The position numbers and the translations under genes were made by a program. A DNA stretch of 64,000 bases from Halomarina litorea (GTDB lineage: Archaea > Halobacteriota > Halobacteria > Halobacteriales > Haloarculaceae), in the NCBI RefSeq assembly GCF_024227715.1, contig NZ_CP100448.1, positions 744,001 to 808,000 on the forward strand. The letters run 5' to 3'. Each line of letters opens with the position of its first letter. Position 1 is the first letter of the stretch. The notes below the pieces were generated by a model. It was not told the DNA's origin and searched no databases. It was given only the letters and a program-made list of their open reading frames with translations. This document shows positions 2,286 to 53,482 of this stretch, piece after piece.

Positions 2286-4117
2286 TGGCAGAAGACAGCA
2301 TCGCCGTCGTCGACCTCGACAGGTGTTCGCCCGACCGCTGTAACTACGAGTGCGCCAACTTCTGCCCGCCCAACCGGACGGGCAAGGAGTGCATCACCCA
2401 GCGTGGCGAAGACGCCGTGGACGGCGACCCCGACCAGATCCGCATCAGCGAGGACATCTGCCTCGGCGAGTCCTGTGGCATCTGCGTCGTCAAGTGTCCC
2501 TTCGACGCCATCGAGATCATCAACCTCCCGCAGGAACTCGACGAGTCGCCCGTCCACCGCTACGGCGAGAACGCCTTCGCCCTCTACGGCCTGCCCGCCC
2601 CGCAGGAGGGGCAGGTGACGGGCATCCTCGGTCCGAACGGTATCGGGAAGACCACCGCCGTCCGCATCCTCGCCGACGAGATCACGCCGAACCTCGGCGA
2701 CTACACGGCGACCCCCGACTGGGAGGCCGTCATCGACGAGTACCGCGGCACCGAACTCCAGAACTTCCTCGAGGACGTGCAGGCCGGCGACGTCACGGTG
2801 GCGCGCAAACCCCAGTACGTCGATAAGATACCGAGCCGGTTCGACGGCAACACCCGCCAGTTGCTCGAATCCACCGACGAACGCGGCGTGATGGAGGAGT
2901 TGGTCGAGCGACTCTCCATCGGGCCGGTCGTCGACCAGCCCATCGACACACTCTCCGGCGGGGAACTCCAGCGGGTCGCACTCGCCGCGACGCTGGCCCG
3001 CGACGCCGACTTCTACTTCCTCGACGAGGTGACGCCGTACCTCGACATCGGCCAGCGGGTGACCGCCGCGCGCCTCGTCCGCGAACTCGCCGAGGAGGGC
3101 GACCGCTCGATGCTCGTCGTCGAACACGACCTCGCGGTCCTCGACCTGCTCGCCGACTCGGTCCACCTCGCGTACGGTGAACCCGGGGCGTACGGCGTCA
3201 TCACGCCCCCGAAATCCACGCGGCAGGGCATCAACCAGTACCTCTCGGGCTACCTCGAGGCCCAGAACATGCGCATCCGCCCGGAGGCCATCGAGTTCGA
3301 GCGCCACGCCCCGCGGACGGCCAGTCGCGGCGAGACGCTCGTCGAGTACCCGGACCTCGTCCACTCCTACGGCGAGGGGGAGTTCACCCTCGAGGTCGAA
3401 GCCGGCGAGATTCGCAAGAACGAGGTGCTCGGCATCGTCGGGCCGAACGGTATCGGGAAGTCGACGTTCGCCAAACTGCTCACCGGAAAGCTCGAAGCGA
3501 CGGAGGGCGACCTCGACACGAACCTCGACATCGCCTACAAGCCCCAGTACGTCGACATCGACCAGCCGATGCGCGTCGACGCCTTTTTGGCATCGATCAC
3601 CGACCAGTTCGGCTCCTCGTACTGGGAGACCGAAATCGCCCAGCCGCTCCAGCTAGAGCGCATCATGGAGCAGAACCTCACCGACCTCTCGGGCGGGGAG
3701 CGCCAGCGCGTCGCCATCGCGGCCTGTCTCTCGAAGGACGCCGACCTCTACCTGCTCGACGAACCCTCCGCACATCTGGACGTCGAACAGCGGGTGCTCG
3801 CCACCCGCGCCATCCGTCGCTACACGGAGAACCACGACGCGACGGCGATGGTCATCGACCACGACATCTACATGATCGACCTGCTGTCGGACCGCCTGAT
3901 GGTGTTCGACGGCGAACCCGCTGTGCGCGGCGAGACGTCGCCCCCCGTCGGGATGCGCGAGGGGATGAACCGGTTCCTCGCGAACCTCGACATCACCTTC
4001 CGGCGCGACCAGCGGACGAGTCGCCCGCGCATCAACAAGCCCGGGTCGCAACTCGACCGCGAGCAGAAGAACGCGGGCGAGTACTACTACGCGCCGGACA
4101 GCGACGACGAGGAGTAG
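2285..4117 (+). CDS. rli: Ribosome recycling ATPase ABCE1 (RLI)
   Basis: A 610-residue soluble twin-ABC ATPase with two N-terminal 4Fe-4S clusters. It splits archaeal ribosomes after termination. Cysteines at about 14, 19, 23 and 27 (CSPDRC..C..C) and the later CLGESCGICVVKCPF form the ferredoxin-like domain. Then come two nucleotide-binding domains, each with a Walker A (GPNGIGKTT, GPNGIGKST) and a signature (LSGGELQR, LSGGERQR), with Walker B before DE or DEP. The ATG at 2285 overlaps the stop of the EMC6-like gene; an open frame extends upstream to 1907 but is out of register with the family N-terminus. Length and domain order are complete. Confidence 0.98.
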   Translation: MAEDSIAVVDLDRCSPDRCNYECANFCPPNRTGKECITQRGEDAVDGDPDQIRISEDICLGESCGICVVKCPFDAIEIINLPQELDESPVHRYGENAFALYGLPAPQEGQVTGILGPNGIGKTTAVRILADEITPNLGDYTATPDWEAVIDEYRGTELQNFLEDVQAGDVTVARKPQYVDKIPSRFDGNTRQLLESTDERGVMEELVERLSIGPVVDQPIDTLSGGELQRVALAATLARDADFYFLDEVTPYLDIGQRVTAARLVRELAEEGDRSMLVVEHDLAVLDLLADSVHLAYGEPGAYGVITPPKSTRQGINQYLSGYLEAQNMRIRPEAIEFERHAPRTASRGETLVEYPDLVHSYGEGEFTLEVEAGEIRKNEVLGIVGPNGIGKSTFAKLLTGKLEATEGDLDTNLDIAYKPQYVDIDQPMRVDAFLASITDQFGSSYWETEIAQPLQLERIMEQNLTDLSGGERQRVAIAACLSKDADLYLLDEPSAHLDVEQRVLATRAIRRYTENHDATAMVIDHDIYMIDLLSDRLMVFDGEPAVRGETSPPVGMREGMNRFLANLDITFRRDQRTSRPRINKPGSQLDREQKNAGEYYYAPDSDDEE

Positions 4118-4263
4118 GGAGGTTCAGAGCGTCCGGATGACGCGAGAACCTCCGAAGTACGAGCGGGGAGCGATAGCGACCCGCGAGTAGCGCGGTTCGG
4201 AGGATTCGAGAGCCCGAGAACCGCGGAAACCGAGCGGGGAGCGATAGCGACCCGCGAGGAGTA
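4118..4263. repeat. Two tandem units of a hairpin-bearing dispersed repeat, 3' of ABCE1
   Basis: Two units of about 71 bases follow the ABCE1 stop. Each has an outer inverted repeat (AGGTTC 4120-4125 with GAACCT 4146-4151; CGGTTC 4193-4198 with GAACCG 4218-4223), then an identical 27-base core at 4161-4187 and 4232-4258 that begins GAGCGGGGAGCGATAGCG. The outer stems differ in sequence but keep pairing, which suggests selection or mutation by whole units. A related unit lies at 14911-14965 and a copy of the core lies inside pdxT. No open frame is supported here. Confidence 0.8.
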
Positions 4264-4333: not shown

Positions 4334-5110
4334 ATGTACGACTACCACGTCCACTCCAACTACTCGGACGGGTCGTTCCTCTACTGGATGCTCTCGGCCG
4401 CCGAGGACGCCGGACTGGACGGCGTGGGCTTCGCGGACCACTGCAACGTCTCGGCCCGCGAGGCACAACAGCGCGAGAAGTTCCTCTTCGGGTTCACCCT
4501 CGATGCGACCTACGACCGCAGGCGGGCGGGTATCGAGGCGGTCCGCGACCGCTTCGACCTCCGGGTGTACGACGCCGTCGAGATGGACTACGTCGCGGGC
4601 GAGGAGGACCGTATCGCGGACTTCCTCGACGAGGCGGGCTTCGACTACGCCATCGGGAGCGTCCACTCCCTCGACGACCGGAACGTCCAGACCAACGGGC
4701 CGTTCCGCGACCTCTCGCCCGACGACCGGCGGGCGGTGGTCGACGATTACTACGAAACGCTGGCAGGGATGGTCGAGTCCGAACTGTTCGCCGTCGCGGC
4801 CCACCCCGACCTGCTCGAACGAAACGAACACCTCCGGGGGCTGGCCACCGAGGACCACTACGACCGGGTCGCGCGGGCGTTCGCCGACTCGCGAACCGTC
4901 CCCGAGGTCAACGCCGGGCGCGTCCTCTCGGAGTACGGCGAGTTCCACCCCGCACCCGCCTTCTTCGAGGCCTTCCGCGAGTACGACGTGGGCTTCACGC
5001 TCGGGACGGACTCCCACCGGCCCGACGAAATCGCCCCCCGTACCGAGGAACTCGACCGCTTCTGTTCGGAGACGGGCCTCGAACCCGTCGAACTCGACGT
5101 CCCGACGTGA
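4334..5110 (+). CDS. PHP-domain phosphoesterase (histidinol-phosphatase-like)
   Basis: A 258-residue PHP-family metal-dependent phosphoesterase. The N-terminal DYHVHSNYSDGS carries the HxH metal site; FADHCN, EMDYV, IGSVHS, AAHPDL and a C-terminal GTDSHRPDEI supply further His/Asp/Glu ligands in the usual order. The family includes HisK-type histidinol-phosphatase, a plausible role, but no other his gene is adjacent. A clear paralogue with the same motif order lies at 59741-60511. The start ATG at 4334 places the HxH motif at residues 5-7, as expected. Confidence 0.85.
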   Translation: MYDYHVHSNYSDGSFLYWMLSAAEDAGLDGVGFADHCNVSAREAQQREKFLFGFTLDATYDRRRAGIEAVRDRFDLRVYDAVEMDYVAGEEDRIADFLDEAGFDYAIGSVHSLDDRNVQTNGPFRDLSPDDRRAVVDDYYETLAGMVESELFAVAAHPDLLERNEHLRGLATEDHYDRVARAFADSRTVPEVNAGRVLSEYGEFHPAPAFFEAFREYDVGFTLGTDSHRPDEIAPRTEELDRFCSETGLEPVELDVPT

Positions 5111-11102: not shown

Positions 11103-11750
11103 ATGACCATCACGGCCGGCGTCGTCGCGGTCCAGGGCGACGTCTCGGAGCACGTCGCGGCCATCGAGGCGGCCGCCGAGGCCAACGGGGCAGGCGAGGC
11201 ACACAGTGCCTCGAAGCGGAGCGGGGAGCACGGCGACCCGCGAGGCGGTGTCGAGGTGCGGGAGGTCAGGACGGCGGGGGTCGTCCCCGAATGCGACGTC
11301 CTCCTCCTGCCCGGCGGGGAGTCGACGACCATCTCGCGACTCCTCCACGGTCAGGGCATCGACGAGGAGATTCGCGACCACGTCGCCGCCGGCAAACCTC
11401 TGCTCGCGACGTGTGCGGGTCTCATCGTCGTCAGCCGCGACGCCAAAGACGACCGGGTGCGCGTCCTCGACTTGCTGGACGTGAGCGTCGACCGCAACGC
11501 CTTCGGGCGGCAGGTGGACAGTTTCGAGGCACCGCTGGACGTCACGGGCCTCGACGACCCGTTCCCGGCGGTGTTCATCCGCGCGCCCCTCATCGACGAG
11601 GTGGGCGACGGGGTCGAGGTCCTCGCCGAGTGGGAGGGGCGGCCCGTCGCCGTCCGGCAGGGGTCGGTCGTCGCCACCTCCTTCCACCCCGAACTGACGG
11701 ACGACGACCGCATCCACCGGCTGGCGTTCTTCGAGCGCGCGCTCGCCTGA
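11103..11750 (+). CDS. pdxT: Pyridoxal 5'-phosphate synthase glutaminase subunit PdxT, with an in-frame insertion
   Basis: A 215-residue class I glutaminase that hands ammonia to PdxS for vitamin B6 synthesis. The active-site Cys is C104 in ATCAGL; GGESTT binds substrate, and the His/Glu pair lies in SFHPE near the C-terminus. The family regions GVVAVQGDVSEH, ERNSFG-like DRNAFGRQVDSF and VFIRAP are all present. Residues about 31-49 (GEAHSASKRSGEHGDPRGG) are extra relative to the expected short loop and are encoded by the dispersed repeat core at 11219-11244. The rest of the enzyme looks intact. It leads a cluster with the DUF151 and hisE genes. Confidence 0.93.
   Translation: MTITAGVVAVQGDVSEHVAAIEAAAEANGAGEAHSASKRSGEHGDPRGGVEVREVRTAGVVPECDVLLLPGGESTTISRLLHGQGIDEEIRDHVAAGKPLLATCAGLIVVSRDAKDDRVRVLDLLDVSVDRNAFGRQVDSFEAPLDVTGLDDPFPAVFIRAPLIDEVGDGVEVLAEWEGRPVAVRQGSVVATSFHPELTDDDRIHRLAFFERALA
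11195..11248 (+). repeat. Dispersed repeat core inside the pdxT coding sequence
   Basis: Bases 11219-11244 match the 27-base core found twice at 4161-4258 except for a few bases in the middle (CACGGCG instead of CGATAGCG). It sits in a loop-encoding region of pdxT and keeps the frame. Confidence 0.75.
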
Positions 11751-51600: not shown

Positions 51601-52245
51601 ATCGCCCGCCTCGACGGGGAGATGACGGCGCTCGAACCGGTGAACATGCTCGCCATCGACGAGTACGACGCCGTCGCCGAGGACCTCGCGGACCTGCAGG
51701 ACAAGCGGGCCACGCTGGTCGAGGAGCGCGACGGCATCGTCGAGCGCATCGAGGGGTACGAGGCGAAGAAGAAGGCGACGTTCATGGAGTCCTACGAGGC
51801 CATCAACGGGCACTTCGAGGACATCTTCGGCCGCCTCTCCAGCGGGAGCGGCACCCTCGTACTGGAAGACGAGGACGACCCGTTCGAGGGTGGCCTGACG
51901 ATGAAGGCGAAACCGGGCGACAAGCCCGTCCAGCGCCTCGACGCCATGTCCGGCGGCGAGAAGTCGCTGACGGCACTCGCGTTCATCTTCGCCATTCAAC
52001 GCCACAACCCGGCCCCGTTCTACGCGCTGGACGAGGTGGACGCCTTCCTCGACGCGGCCAACGCGGAGGCGGTCGGCGAGATGGTCGACGCCCTCGCGGA
52101 CGACGCGCAGTTCGTCGTCGTCTCCCATCGCTCGGCGCTGCTGGAACGCTCCGAGCGCGCCATCGGCGTGACGATGATGGACGACAACGTCTCGGCGGTG
52201 ACTGGTATCGACCTGAGCGGGCAGGGGGTGCCGGCGGATGACTAG
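48679..52245 (+). CDS. smc: Chromosome segregation protein Smc
   Basis: A 1188-residue condensin ATPase. Walker A is GPNGSGKSN at residues 31-39; two long acidic coiled-coil arms run about 170-510 and 680-1020; the hinge is at about 530-670 (DIDGVHGAVGQLGG to GAMTGGSRSG). The C-terminal head has MSGGEKSLTALAFIFAIQ (signature) and FYALDEVDAFLD (Walker B). It overlaps scpA by eight bases. Length and order are complete for an archaeal Smc. Confidence 0.97.
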   Translation: MHIKELVLDDFKSFGRKTRIPFYEDFTTISGPNGSGKSNIIDSVLFALGLARTSGIRAEKLTDLIYNPDDDGADFAGEREASVEVVLDNSDATLSRSQVTNAAGTDNVGDVDEISIRRRVKQTEDNYYSYYYLNGRSVNLSDIQDLLAQAGVAPEGYNVVMQGDVTEIINMTPGSRREIIDEIAGVAEFDARKADAMDELEVVEERVDEADLRIEEKEDRLEQLKDERETALEYQSLKEEREEYEGYLKAAELEDKRAALDATESKVERTESKLEERQRTLDERQGAVLRQEEDLEDLNAEIERTGEDEQLRVKREMEEVKGEISRLEDAIESARERVEDAENRRRQAFVKVDRKQEQVDDLHAKVRNVKVEKASLKADIEERREELADVEADIEAVDDEYEQLKEDLAEAREELEDAKSEKNELQREQDRLLDEARRRSNEQREVREDIEDLQDEVPDLEADLADLEAELEKVEKNKTTIESVVDDLRGEKYDLQDELDAIEDKVSAAQQEYAELEAKAGQSGDSSFGRAVTTVLNGDIDGVHGAVGQLGGVSSQYATACETAAGGRLANVVVEDDGVGQRGIEYLKSRNAGRATFLPMNKMRQRSLPSLPNESGVVDFAYNLVDFDPQYAGIFSYVLGDTLVVEDVETARDLMGSFRMVTLDGELVEKSGAMTGGSRSGSRYSFAGGEGQLERVATRINELEEKRQSVREELRDVESRLDDARDRQANVADKVREVESDVESTEDRIASIDEEVERKEARLDELEDEREEVTERMEAIEADIAAKDEEIAAIEERIADREADLRDSEVAELTERAEEIRADIADLEAEMDDLDGTLNELQLEKQYAEEAIEDLHDDIESAQNRKAEAEERIVELEDEIEEKEAVLEEKREQVAELEDELAELKEEREALKADLREAKEARDEAKEAVGKLASRLETLTDKRDRLEWEVDELAAQVGEYDPESIPDHDEVESEIARLDGEMTALEPVNMLAIDEYDAVAEDLADLQDKRATLVEERDGIVERIEGYEAKKKATFMESYEAINGHFEDIFGRLSSGSGTLVLEDEDDPFEGGLTMKAKPGDKPVQRLDAMSGGEKSLTALAFIFAIQRHNPAPFYALDEVDAFLDAANAEAVGEMVDALADDAQFVVVSHRSALLERSERAIGVTMMDDNVSAVTGIDLSGQGVPADD

Positions 52246-53482
52246 CGCGGACGGAGACCCGCCGAAGGCGGGTCGAGAGTCCGCGAACGAGTCGAGCGAG
52301 GAGCAACGCGACTCGCGAGACAGCGCGGACGGAGAGGGAGACGCGACCAGCGCGGGGTCGGAGACCCCGCGAGAAACCGGCGACGATGTCGCCGGTGACG
52401 AAGGGAGCGTCTCCGAGACGCGAGCGGAGAGCGAAGCGAGCCGCGAGCAAGGCCCGCCGAAGGCGGATCGCGAGTCCGCGGAGCAGTCGAGCGACTCGGA
52501 GGAACCGCGAGACAGCCCGGCCGGGAACGAACACACGAACGGTCACGACGCCCACGAGGGGCAGGACGTCGCGGACGGCGTCTCGCTGAACATCGCGGGT
52601 CACGAGGACCGCGAGGACCCCTCGGCGGACGTCTCGGACCTGCTGGGCGGTGACGAAGCGGAGGCCCCCGACGCGGACGACGGCGAGGATGGTGTCGAAC
52701 CCGTCGAACTCCTCGTCCAGTTGGCCGACCGGGGCGAGATCGCCCCGTGGGACATCGACATCGTCGCGGTGACGGACAAGTTCCTCGCGGCGCTGGACGA
52801 CGGCGACCTGCGGACCGGCGGGCGGGCGCTGTTCTACGCGAGCGTCCTCCTGCGGATGAAGAGCGACGCGCTGATGGAACCCGACGAGCCGGAGGAACCG
52901 GAGCTCGAACCGTGGGAGGAGCCGTGGGACGCCCCCGGTGCGCCGGAGGACGACGAGTGGGGAGGGCCGGACCCCTTCGACGCCCTCGACCGGGAGATGG
53001 ACCGCCGCCTCGAACGCAAGCGCGCCCGCGGGATGCCCGAGACGCTCGACGAACTCGTCCGCGAGTTGCGGGAGGCAGAGCGCGGGTCGTGGTGGAAGGA
53101 GTCCCGGACCTACGACACCAGCGACTCGCCGAAGGGGTTCCGCCGGGGCACCCAGACCCTCGACTACCGGTCTGGCGACGACTTCCGGGTGGACGACGAA
53201 CCGACCGCGGGCGACGTGACCGGGACGGCCCACCAGGAGGACATCGAGACGACCATCCGGCACGTCAACCGCGCCCTTCGAGAGCAGTACGACGCCGGGC
53301 GCGAGGAGGTGCTCTACGCCGAGATTCAGGAAGCCGGCGGGTCGCGCGTCGAGACGTTCCTCGCGCTCCTCTTTCTGGCCCACCGCGGGCAGGTCCGCCT
53401 CCAGCAGGACGACCTGTTCGGCGACCTGTGGGTGCAGGACCCCGCCGCGACGGAGACGGCCGCGGAGGCCGTCGCGGACTGA
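52238..53482 (+). CDS. scpA: Segregation and condensation protein ScpA with a long acidic N-terminus
   Basis: A 414-residue kleisin. The core starts at about 150 (EPVELLVQLADRGEIAPWDIDIVAVTDKFLAAL), with GRALFYASVLLRMKSDALM and a C-terminal winged helix (EVLYAEIQEAGGSRVETFLALLFLAHRGQVRLQQDDLFGDLWV). Residues 1-110 are low-complexity, Glu/Ser/Asp-rich and contain a repeated segment. ScpA bridges the two Smc heads. No scpB follows. The ATG overlaps smc. Confidence 0.92.
   Translation: MTSADGDPPKAGRESANESSEEQRDSRDSADGEGDATSAGSETPRETGDDVAGDEGSVSETRAESEASREQGPPKADRESAEQSSDSEEPRDSPAGNEHTNGHDAHEGQDVADGVSLNIAGHEDREDPSADVSDLLGGDEAEAPDADDGEDGVEPVELLVQLADRGEIAPWDIDIVAVTDKFLAALDDGDLRTGGRALFYASVLLRMKSDALMEPDEPEEPELEPWEEPWDAPGAPEDDEWGGPDPFDALDREMDRRLERKRARGMPETLDELVRELREAERGSWWKESRTYDTSDSPKGFRRGTQTLDYRSGDDFRVDDEPTAGDVTGTAHQEDIETTIRHVNRALREQYDAGREEVLYAEIQEAGGSRVETFLALLFLAHRGQVRLQQDDLFGDLWVQDPAATETAAEAVAD
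52258..52500 (+). repeat. In-frame direct repeat in the scpA N-terminal region
   Basis: About 48 bases at 52258-52305 recur, with a few changes, at 52453-52500. The offset is exactly 195 bases, or 65 codons, so PPKAGRESANESSEEQRD recurs as PPKADRESAEQSSDSEEPRD. Each copy holds the palindrome CCGCCGAAGGCGG. Several other small palindromes lie between them. Confidence 0.75.

Follow-up and report, generated by a model that had tools for sequence, protein, structure and literature searches.

The window analysed here, a 64,000-nucleotide stretch of the Halomarina litorea genome (contig NZ_CP100448.1, positions 744,001 to 808,000), contains a pdxT gene with an in-frame insert, together with further copies of a short core sequence that lies within the insert (Table 1). 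Identification of the gene product is secure, with matches to the PdxT profile TIGR03800 (E = 2.1e-59) and to the SNO profile PF01174 (E = 9.4e-56), and the catalytic Cys-His-Glu residues (C104, H195 and E197) are invariant among 42 PdxT proteins, so that membership in the PdxT/SNO glutamine amidotransferases is met. A first-pass annotation of the sequence had claimed that the reading frame is kept and that the active-site cysteine and other motifs remain, and this held.

Table 1. Positions of pdxT, the parts of its insert, and other core copies in the window.
Feature	Coordinates	Strand	Description
pdxT	11103..11750	+	215 aa, glutaminase subunit of pyridoxal 5'-phosphate synthase; insert-bearing
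In-frame insert in pdxT	11195..11248	+	54 nt, 18 codons, about residues 31-48, GEAHSASKRSGEHGDPRG; identified as 18 aa longer than orthologues
Hairpin module in pdxT	11195..11213	+	CGAGGCAC-ACA-GTGCCTCG; perfect 8-bp stem, 3-nt loop
Linker in pdxT	11214..11218	+	AAGCG; one codon less than the usual 8-nt linker
Core in pdxT	11219..11244	+	26 nt, GAGCGGGGAGC-ACG-GCGACCCGCGAG; exact pattern match
Intergenic core copy 1	4161..4187	+	27 nt; between an ORF end at 4117 and an ORF start near 4334
Intergenic core copy 2	4232..4258	+	27 nt; 71 nt from copy 1
Variant core	52294..52319	+	GAGCGAGGAGCAACGCGACTCGCGAG; same-frame peptide SSEEQRDSRD, within the N-terminal tail of a ScpA-like protein

The spacing between the QGDVxEH and PGGEST motifs is 52 residues in the PdxT of the window and 34 in all 52 orthologous loci read (a few genomes are counted twice), a difference of 18. 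When the N-terminal 102 residues were compared with 391 Halobacteria genomes, the full-span matches listed were all shorter by 18 codons, and the E-value fell from 3e-61 to 1.5e-29 for the best match other than self; both family profiles and solved structures pick up the alignment again beyond the loop. The 18-codon insert was not found in any other PdxT read, whether from Halobacteria, bacteria or methanogens, and its ends are uncertain by a few nucleotides. The first-pass annotation had described an extra loop at 11195-11248 (about residues 31-49), and this held, the interval being exactly one 54-nt unit and an 18-codon insert; its further statement that the enzyme is otherwise short at this position failed, as the corresponding position in other PdxT proteins is a tight turn. 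An AlphaFold model shows a confident fold (mean pLDDT 90) in which the insert is a loop of low confidence (pLDDT 55-59 in blocks) that lies between a helix at residues 15-27 and a strand at residues 50-55, and the loop is thus predicted to be disordered. That it is translated is inferred from the sequence alone, without protein-level expression data.

A loop of the same length is not present in distant haloarchaeal PdxT proteins, with one partial exception: genome G057, of the same genus as the host (G000), carries 12 inserted residues here (GRSGTGSGEPRE) that resemble a worn core, with no intact hairpin at the site. A loop-free PdxT tree places G000 and G057 in one group, with their sister relation unresolved (0.45), and it is possible, although not proven, that the two inserts have a common origin. 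The longer G057 loop could also suggest that PdxT had the loop ancestrally and that other lineages lost it, or that the repeat family was born in pdxT. This interpretation is all but excluded, because dozens of Halobacteria orthologues, as well as the bacterial and methanogen proteins, lack the loop, and the element is common in genomes with a normal pdxT.

The pdxT core has the same base at 23 of 23 fixed positions as the intergenic copies at 4161-4187 and 4232-4258 (GAGCGGGGAGC-GATA-GCGACCCGCGAG), and the sole difference is the internal spacer, which is ACG in pdxT and GATA in the other two. Of the 158 copies that we read, 126 have a 26-nt core with a 3-nt spacer and 30 have a 27-nt core with a 4-nt spacer. 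A spacer of either 3 or 4 nt is normal throughout the family, which we define as GAGCGGGGAGC-N3/4-GCGACCCGCGAG, and the pdxT core is therefore an exact member; a near match with a deleted base is ruled out. The claim that 11219-11244 nearly matches a 27-base core found twice in the window thus held, and was understated.

Under an independent-base model, the 23 fixed bases would be expected by chance about 3e-7 times in the window and about 2e-5 times in the genome. The host genome contains nine copies by a looser pattern (GAGCGNGGAGC-N(2-7)-GCGAC[C/T]CGCGAG), which is present at least once in 79 of the 146 genomes of the host's family; 149 of 391 Halobacteria genomes, representing 46 of 86 genera, carry the strict core. 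As a control, the core pattern read backwards gave no matches in any of the 391 Halobacteria genomes. The copies are thus far beyond chance, an outcome that does not refute the earlier inference of a dispersed repeat. The core also has variant forms (AACGGCGACAGCCGTGAG and GAGCGGCGACGAGCCGCGAG) that occupy the same sites in LysX (L192 and L206) and in an ArgB-type kinase (L379 and L380), and the family therefore exceeds the exact-core counts and some loops have seemingly been reused. Separately, three incomplete genomes from the genus of G122 (G124, G125 and G126) have 13, 28 and 22 cores respectively, and such high copy numbers suggest a recent expansion in this group.

Copies aligned with 75 nt of flanking sequence show that a hairpin, a short linker and then the core form a single recurrent element. 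The first-pass annotation had missed both this arrangement and the perfect 8-bp hairpin at the start of the pdxT insert. Just 5' of the core, 39/43 copies within genes and 62/115 other copies have a perfect stem 7 bp or longer, compared with 4-7 of 158 in shuffled sequences. The arm sequences vary among copies and yet they pair: in 25 copies with an 8-3-8-8-26 layout, from which known orthologues were excluded, 97.5% of arm positions are paired, whereas permuting the right arms among the same 25 copies gives 75% on average and 83% at most. We propose that the element has three parts: a hairpin of 8 bp whose arms vary and whose loop is 3 nt, a linker of 5-8 nt, and a 26-nt core, GAGCGGGGAGC-NNN-GCGACCCGCGAG. 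The hairpin loop is 3 nt in 30/43 genic copies; among the 115 non-genic copies it is 11 nt in 48 and 3 nt in 10, some of these being coding-like. The excess of 3-nt loops in genes could reflect either a gene-to-gene lineage or the loss of all copies that are not a whole number of codons long.

An alternative explanation for the similarity among these loops is convergence, in which surface loops with a high content of S, G, E, D and R look alike by chance as a result of GC-rich codons. Acidic, hydrophilic loops are usual in haloarchaea, and the GC content is high (69%). Convergence is nonetheless virtually excluded, because all 23 fixed bases are exact, including those at synonymous positions, against an expectation of about 2e-5 per genome, the reversed control is empty, and the perfect hairpin is present at a fixed distance.

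We scored copies as genic by ORF continuity and by GC3-GC2 on both flanks, and 43 of the 158 were placed inside coding sequence. This number is inflated by orthologues, and about 20 unrelated genes or sites remain. The targets include MenB (in one group of genomes and separately in G122), LysX, acetylglutamate/acetylaminoadipate (ArgB-type) kinase, PurK, dihydroorotase (PyrC), CobN (at several sites), alanyl-tRNA synthetase, a Dna2-like helicase, MoeA, a phosphorylase, an M50-CBS protein, an MMPL transporter, SfsA and a cupin. The MenB-filled group other than G122 is what we take to be the Haloarcula group, the genus names being inferred.

At two of these targets, filled and empty sites can be compared directly. 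In the ArgB-type kinase most relatives have the empty site PPMAG-DDDGEVIPVN, and G029 has the filled site PPMAG-SEARSASKTSSEEQSDSRDS-DDGEIIPVN; for MenB the empty site in G028 is YEYEADAD-IGDPDAPENV and the filled site in G008 is YEYEADED-SESARDSERASGEQRDPRD-IGDPDAPENV. In both cases the filled site is 19 aa longer (34 versus 15 aa), corresponding to an additional 57 nt, and there is no unambiguous target duplication. A further clean in-frame copy is in the AhpC/TSA (peroxiredoxin) gene of the host genome (L098, G000:C1:22731-22756), where 29 aa replace the 11 aa found in relatives (+18). G057 has 6 additional aa at this AhpC/TSA position.

We conclude that the pdxT loop is very likely a translated copy of a short, dispersed haloarchaeal palindromic element that inserted in frame. 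That the element moved into genes, rather than the reverse, was put forward as inference in the first-pass annotation and is now strongly supported by its presence in about 20 unrelated genes and by the clean empty sites of ArgB and MenB. In the mechanism that we propose, a hairpin-linker-core element would have entered pdxT sense to the gene and without a frameshift, lengthening by 54 nt the stretch that encodes the turn from helix 1 to strand 2, and the inserted peptide would form a hydrophilic, disordered surface loop distant from the catalytic triad. The enzyme would remain intact because the loop sits away from the triad, and we infer that the insert is neutral or nearly so.

The possibility was considered that the insert is retained for a useful role of the loop or hairpin, either in PdxT or in its mRNA, through exaptation or regulation. 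The hairpin and core are intact in G000, and among Haloarcula-group orthologues 15 of 23 long-loop MenB alleles retain a perfect hairpin. However, the core is altered in most of these MenB orthologues, where erosion after insertion is evident and selection on the hairpin is at most weak; other PdxT proteins lack the insert, the G057 site has no intact hairpin, the PdxT loop is predicted to be disordered, and the unit is also present in unrelated proteins. A useful role is therefore very unlikely.

Two candidate signatures of the insertion process were also rejected. A direct repeat of GCGAGGC (11194-11200 and 11240-11246) was dropped as a target-site duplication, its 46-nt spacing being a misfit to the 54-nt insert. 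Copying of the left hairpin arm from the target is hinted at by LysX, with GGG shared, and is unsupported in MenB and ArgB because their empty sites do not contain the arm sequences.

The copies within genes are strongly biased in both orientation and frame. Forty-one of the 43 are sense, and 35 of the 43 are in frame such that they read SGExxDPR; the antisense calls (L116 and L271) are probably false positives of the ORF and GC3 scoring, and L116 has the intergenic layout following a TAG. Stop codons are ruled out as the source of the frame bias: among 40 units with a 3-nt loop, any given frame of the six lacks a stop in 35-39 and contains one in 1-5, so that all six are mostly stop-free. The frames differ in the peptides they encode, with the SGExxDPR frame having a mean charge of -0.45 and being the most hydrophilic, and the other five being basic (+1.5 to +3.5). 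We infer that purifying selection against the other frames suffices to explain the bias, given the acidic proteome of a halophile; insertions in those frames would be removed because the encoded peptides are basic or hydrophobic.

Outside genes the element has a different setting. A TAG and a CGAG-like arm are located 5' of the core in 42/115 non-genic copies, compared with 1-4 in shuffles, and in 5/43 genic copies. In Haloarcula-group genomes many species have an intergenic copy at a conserved place about 4-4.6 kb from pdxT (e.g. L042, L044, L047, L051, L058 and L064); it lies directly at a stop codon and is sometimes tandem, in units of about 62-83 nt.

These features raise the alternative of an archaeal REP/REPIN whose mobility depends on a Y1 (RAYT/IS200-type) transposase able to recognise its hairpin and TAG tag, with pdxT being an accidental landing site. 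In its favour, the hairpin adjoins a tag in the manner of GTAG/CGTC-tagged REPs and REPINs, the non-genic TAG association is well above that in shuffles, and intergenic copies are often directly at a TAG stop with some copies within ORFs, resembling the GTAG REPs that supply stop codons and at times lie in ORFs (PMC3733652). Against it, the Y1 transposase profile PF01797 has no match in five copy-bearing genomes (G000, G029, G053, G055 and G065), whereas Y1 genes are present in three genomes without core copies (G043, G044 and G068), although it is difficult to exclude an enzyme that has been lost or is very divergent. The element also differs from REPs in its large genic share and in having a conserved 26-nt core outside the hairpin. 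REP membership fails because the cognate RAYT is missing, and we regard this alternative as unlikely. Little else informs how the dispersed palindromic element moves: there are no core copies in viral contigs, no target-site duplication is clear, with junctions blurred by a few nucleotides, and the 3-nt-loop genic type is nearly restricted to genes, so that no source pool of mobile copies is seen.

Of the systems described previously, the closest in behaviour are the Rickettsia palindromic elements (RPEs), short palindromes located in frame within housekeeping genes (PMC10969869; PMC3733652). The haloarchaeal element is likewise an in-frame palindromic repeat in unrelated housekeeping genes, tolerated as an extra peptide and absent from orthologues, and this criterion is met. 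However, RPEs are about 150 bp and the haloarchaeal element about 50-57 nt, so that the length criterion is not met; the host is archaeal rather than alpha-proteobacterial; the layout is hairpin-linker-core with free arm sequence; and the element uses nearly one orientation and frame, its genic and intergenic forms being distinct, with loops of 3 and 11 nt respectively. We therefore describe it, by analogy and without sequence comparison, as RPE-like, and do not class it as an RPE because length and host differ. Haloarchaeal MITEs of Halobacterium and Haloquadratum are also short, non-autonomous repeats (reviewed in PMC10969869), but neither IS-like terminal repeats nor a parent IS has so far been recognised for this element, and in-frame coding copies are its hallmark. 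The coding palindromes of Nematomorpha mitochondria (PMC6649704) are similarly inverted repeats within protein genes; they differ in being mitochondrial and longer. The peptide SGERSDPR had no match in the open-access literature searched, and no description of comparable in-frame repeats in archaea or haloarchaea was found in the literature searched, which did not cover subscription journals.

To our knowledge, in-frame coding palindromes have been treated as peculiar to Rickettsia and some REP-rich bacteria, and we found no archaeal report in the literature searched. The element described here thus appears to be a new, archaeal counterpart of the Rickettsia protein-coding palindromes, with pdxT one of many cases across Halobacteria. 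The core spans at least 46 Halobacteria genera and includes filled and empty orthologue pairs in culturable, genetically tractable groups, and movement, single-frame survival and the seeding of loops in essential enzymes are therefore testable.

A bolder interpretation is that most spread of the genic subtype (an 8-3-8 hairpin, an 8-nt linker and a 26-nt core) is from one gene to another, with orientation and frame kept the same. The usual genic insert is 57 nt, a multiple of three. We lean slightly against this interpretation at present; if true, the subtype would be a selfish or semi-domesticated element adapted to translation that repeatedly supplies archaeal enzymes with new disordered loops.

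For annotation, caution is warranted with variable loops containing SERSSGERSDPRD, which are repeat-derived. At another locus of the host genome (L005, G000:C1:969966-969992), an ABC-ATPase ORF has a hairpin-less core after its LSGG...MDP region, at the place expected for Walker B, and the gene is possibly disrupted. Within the window, the ScpA-like ORF that follows SMC (52238-52520) has an N-terminal tail made of translated repeat modules (MTSADGDPPKAGRESANESSEEQRDSRD...), and the terminating TAG of SMC is itself the start of the first repeat module (ATGACTAG overlap).
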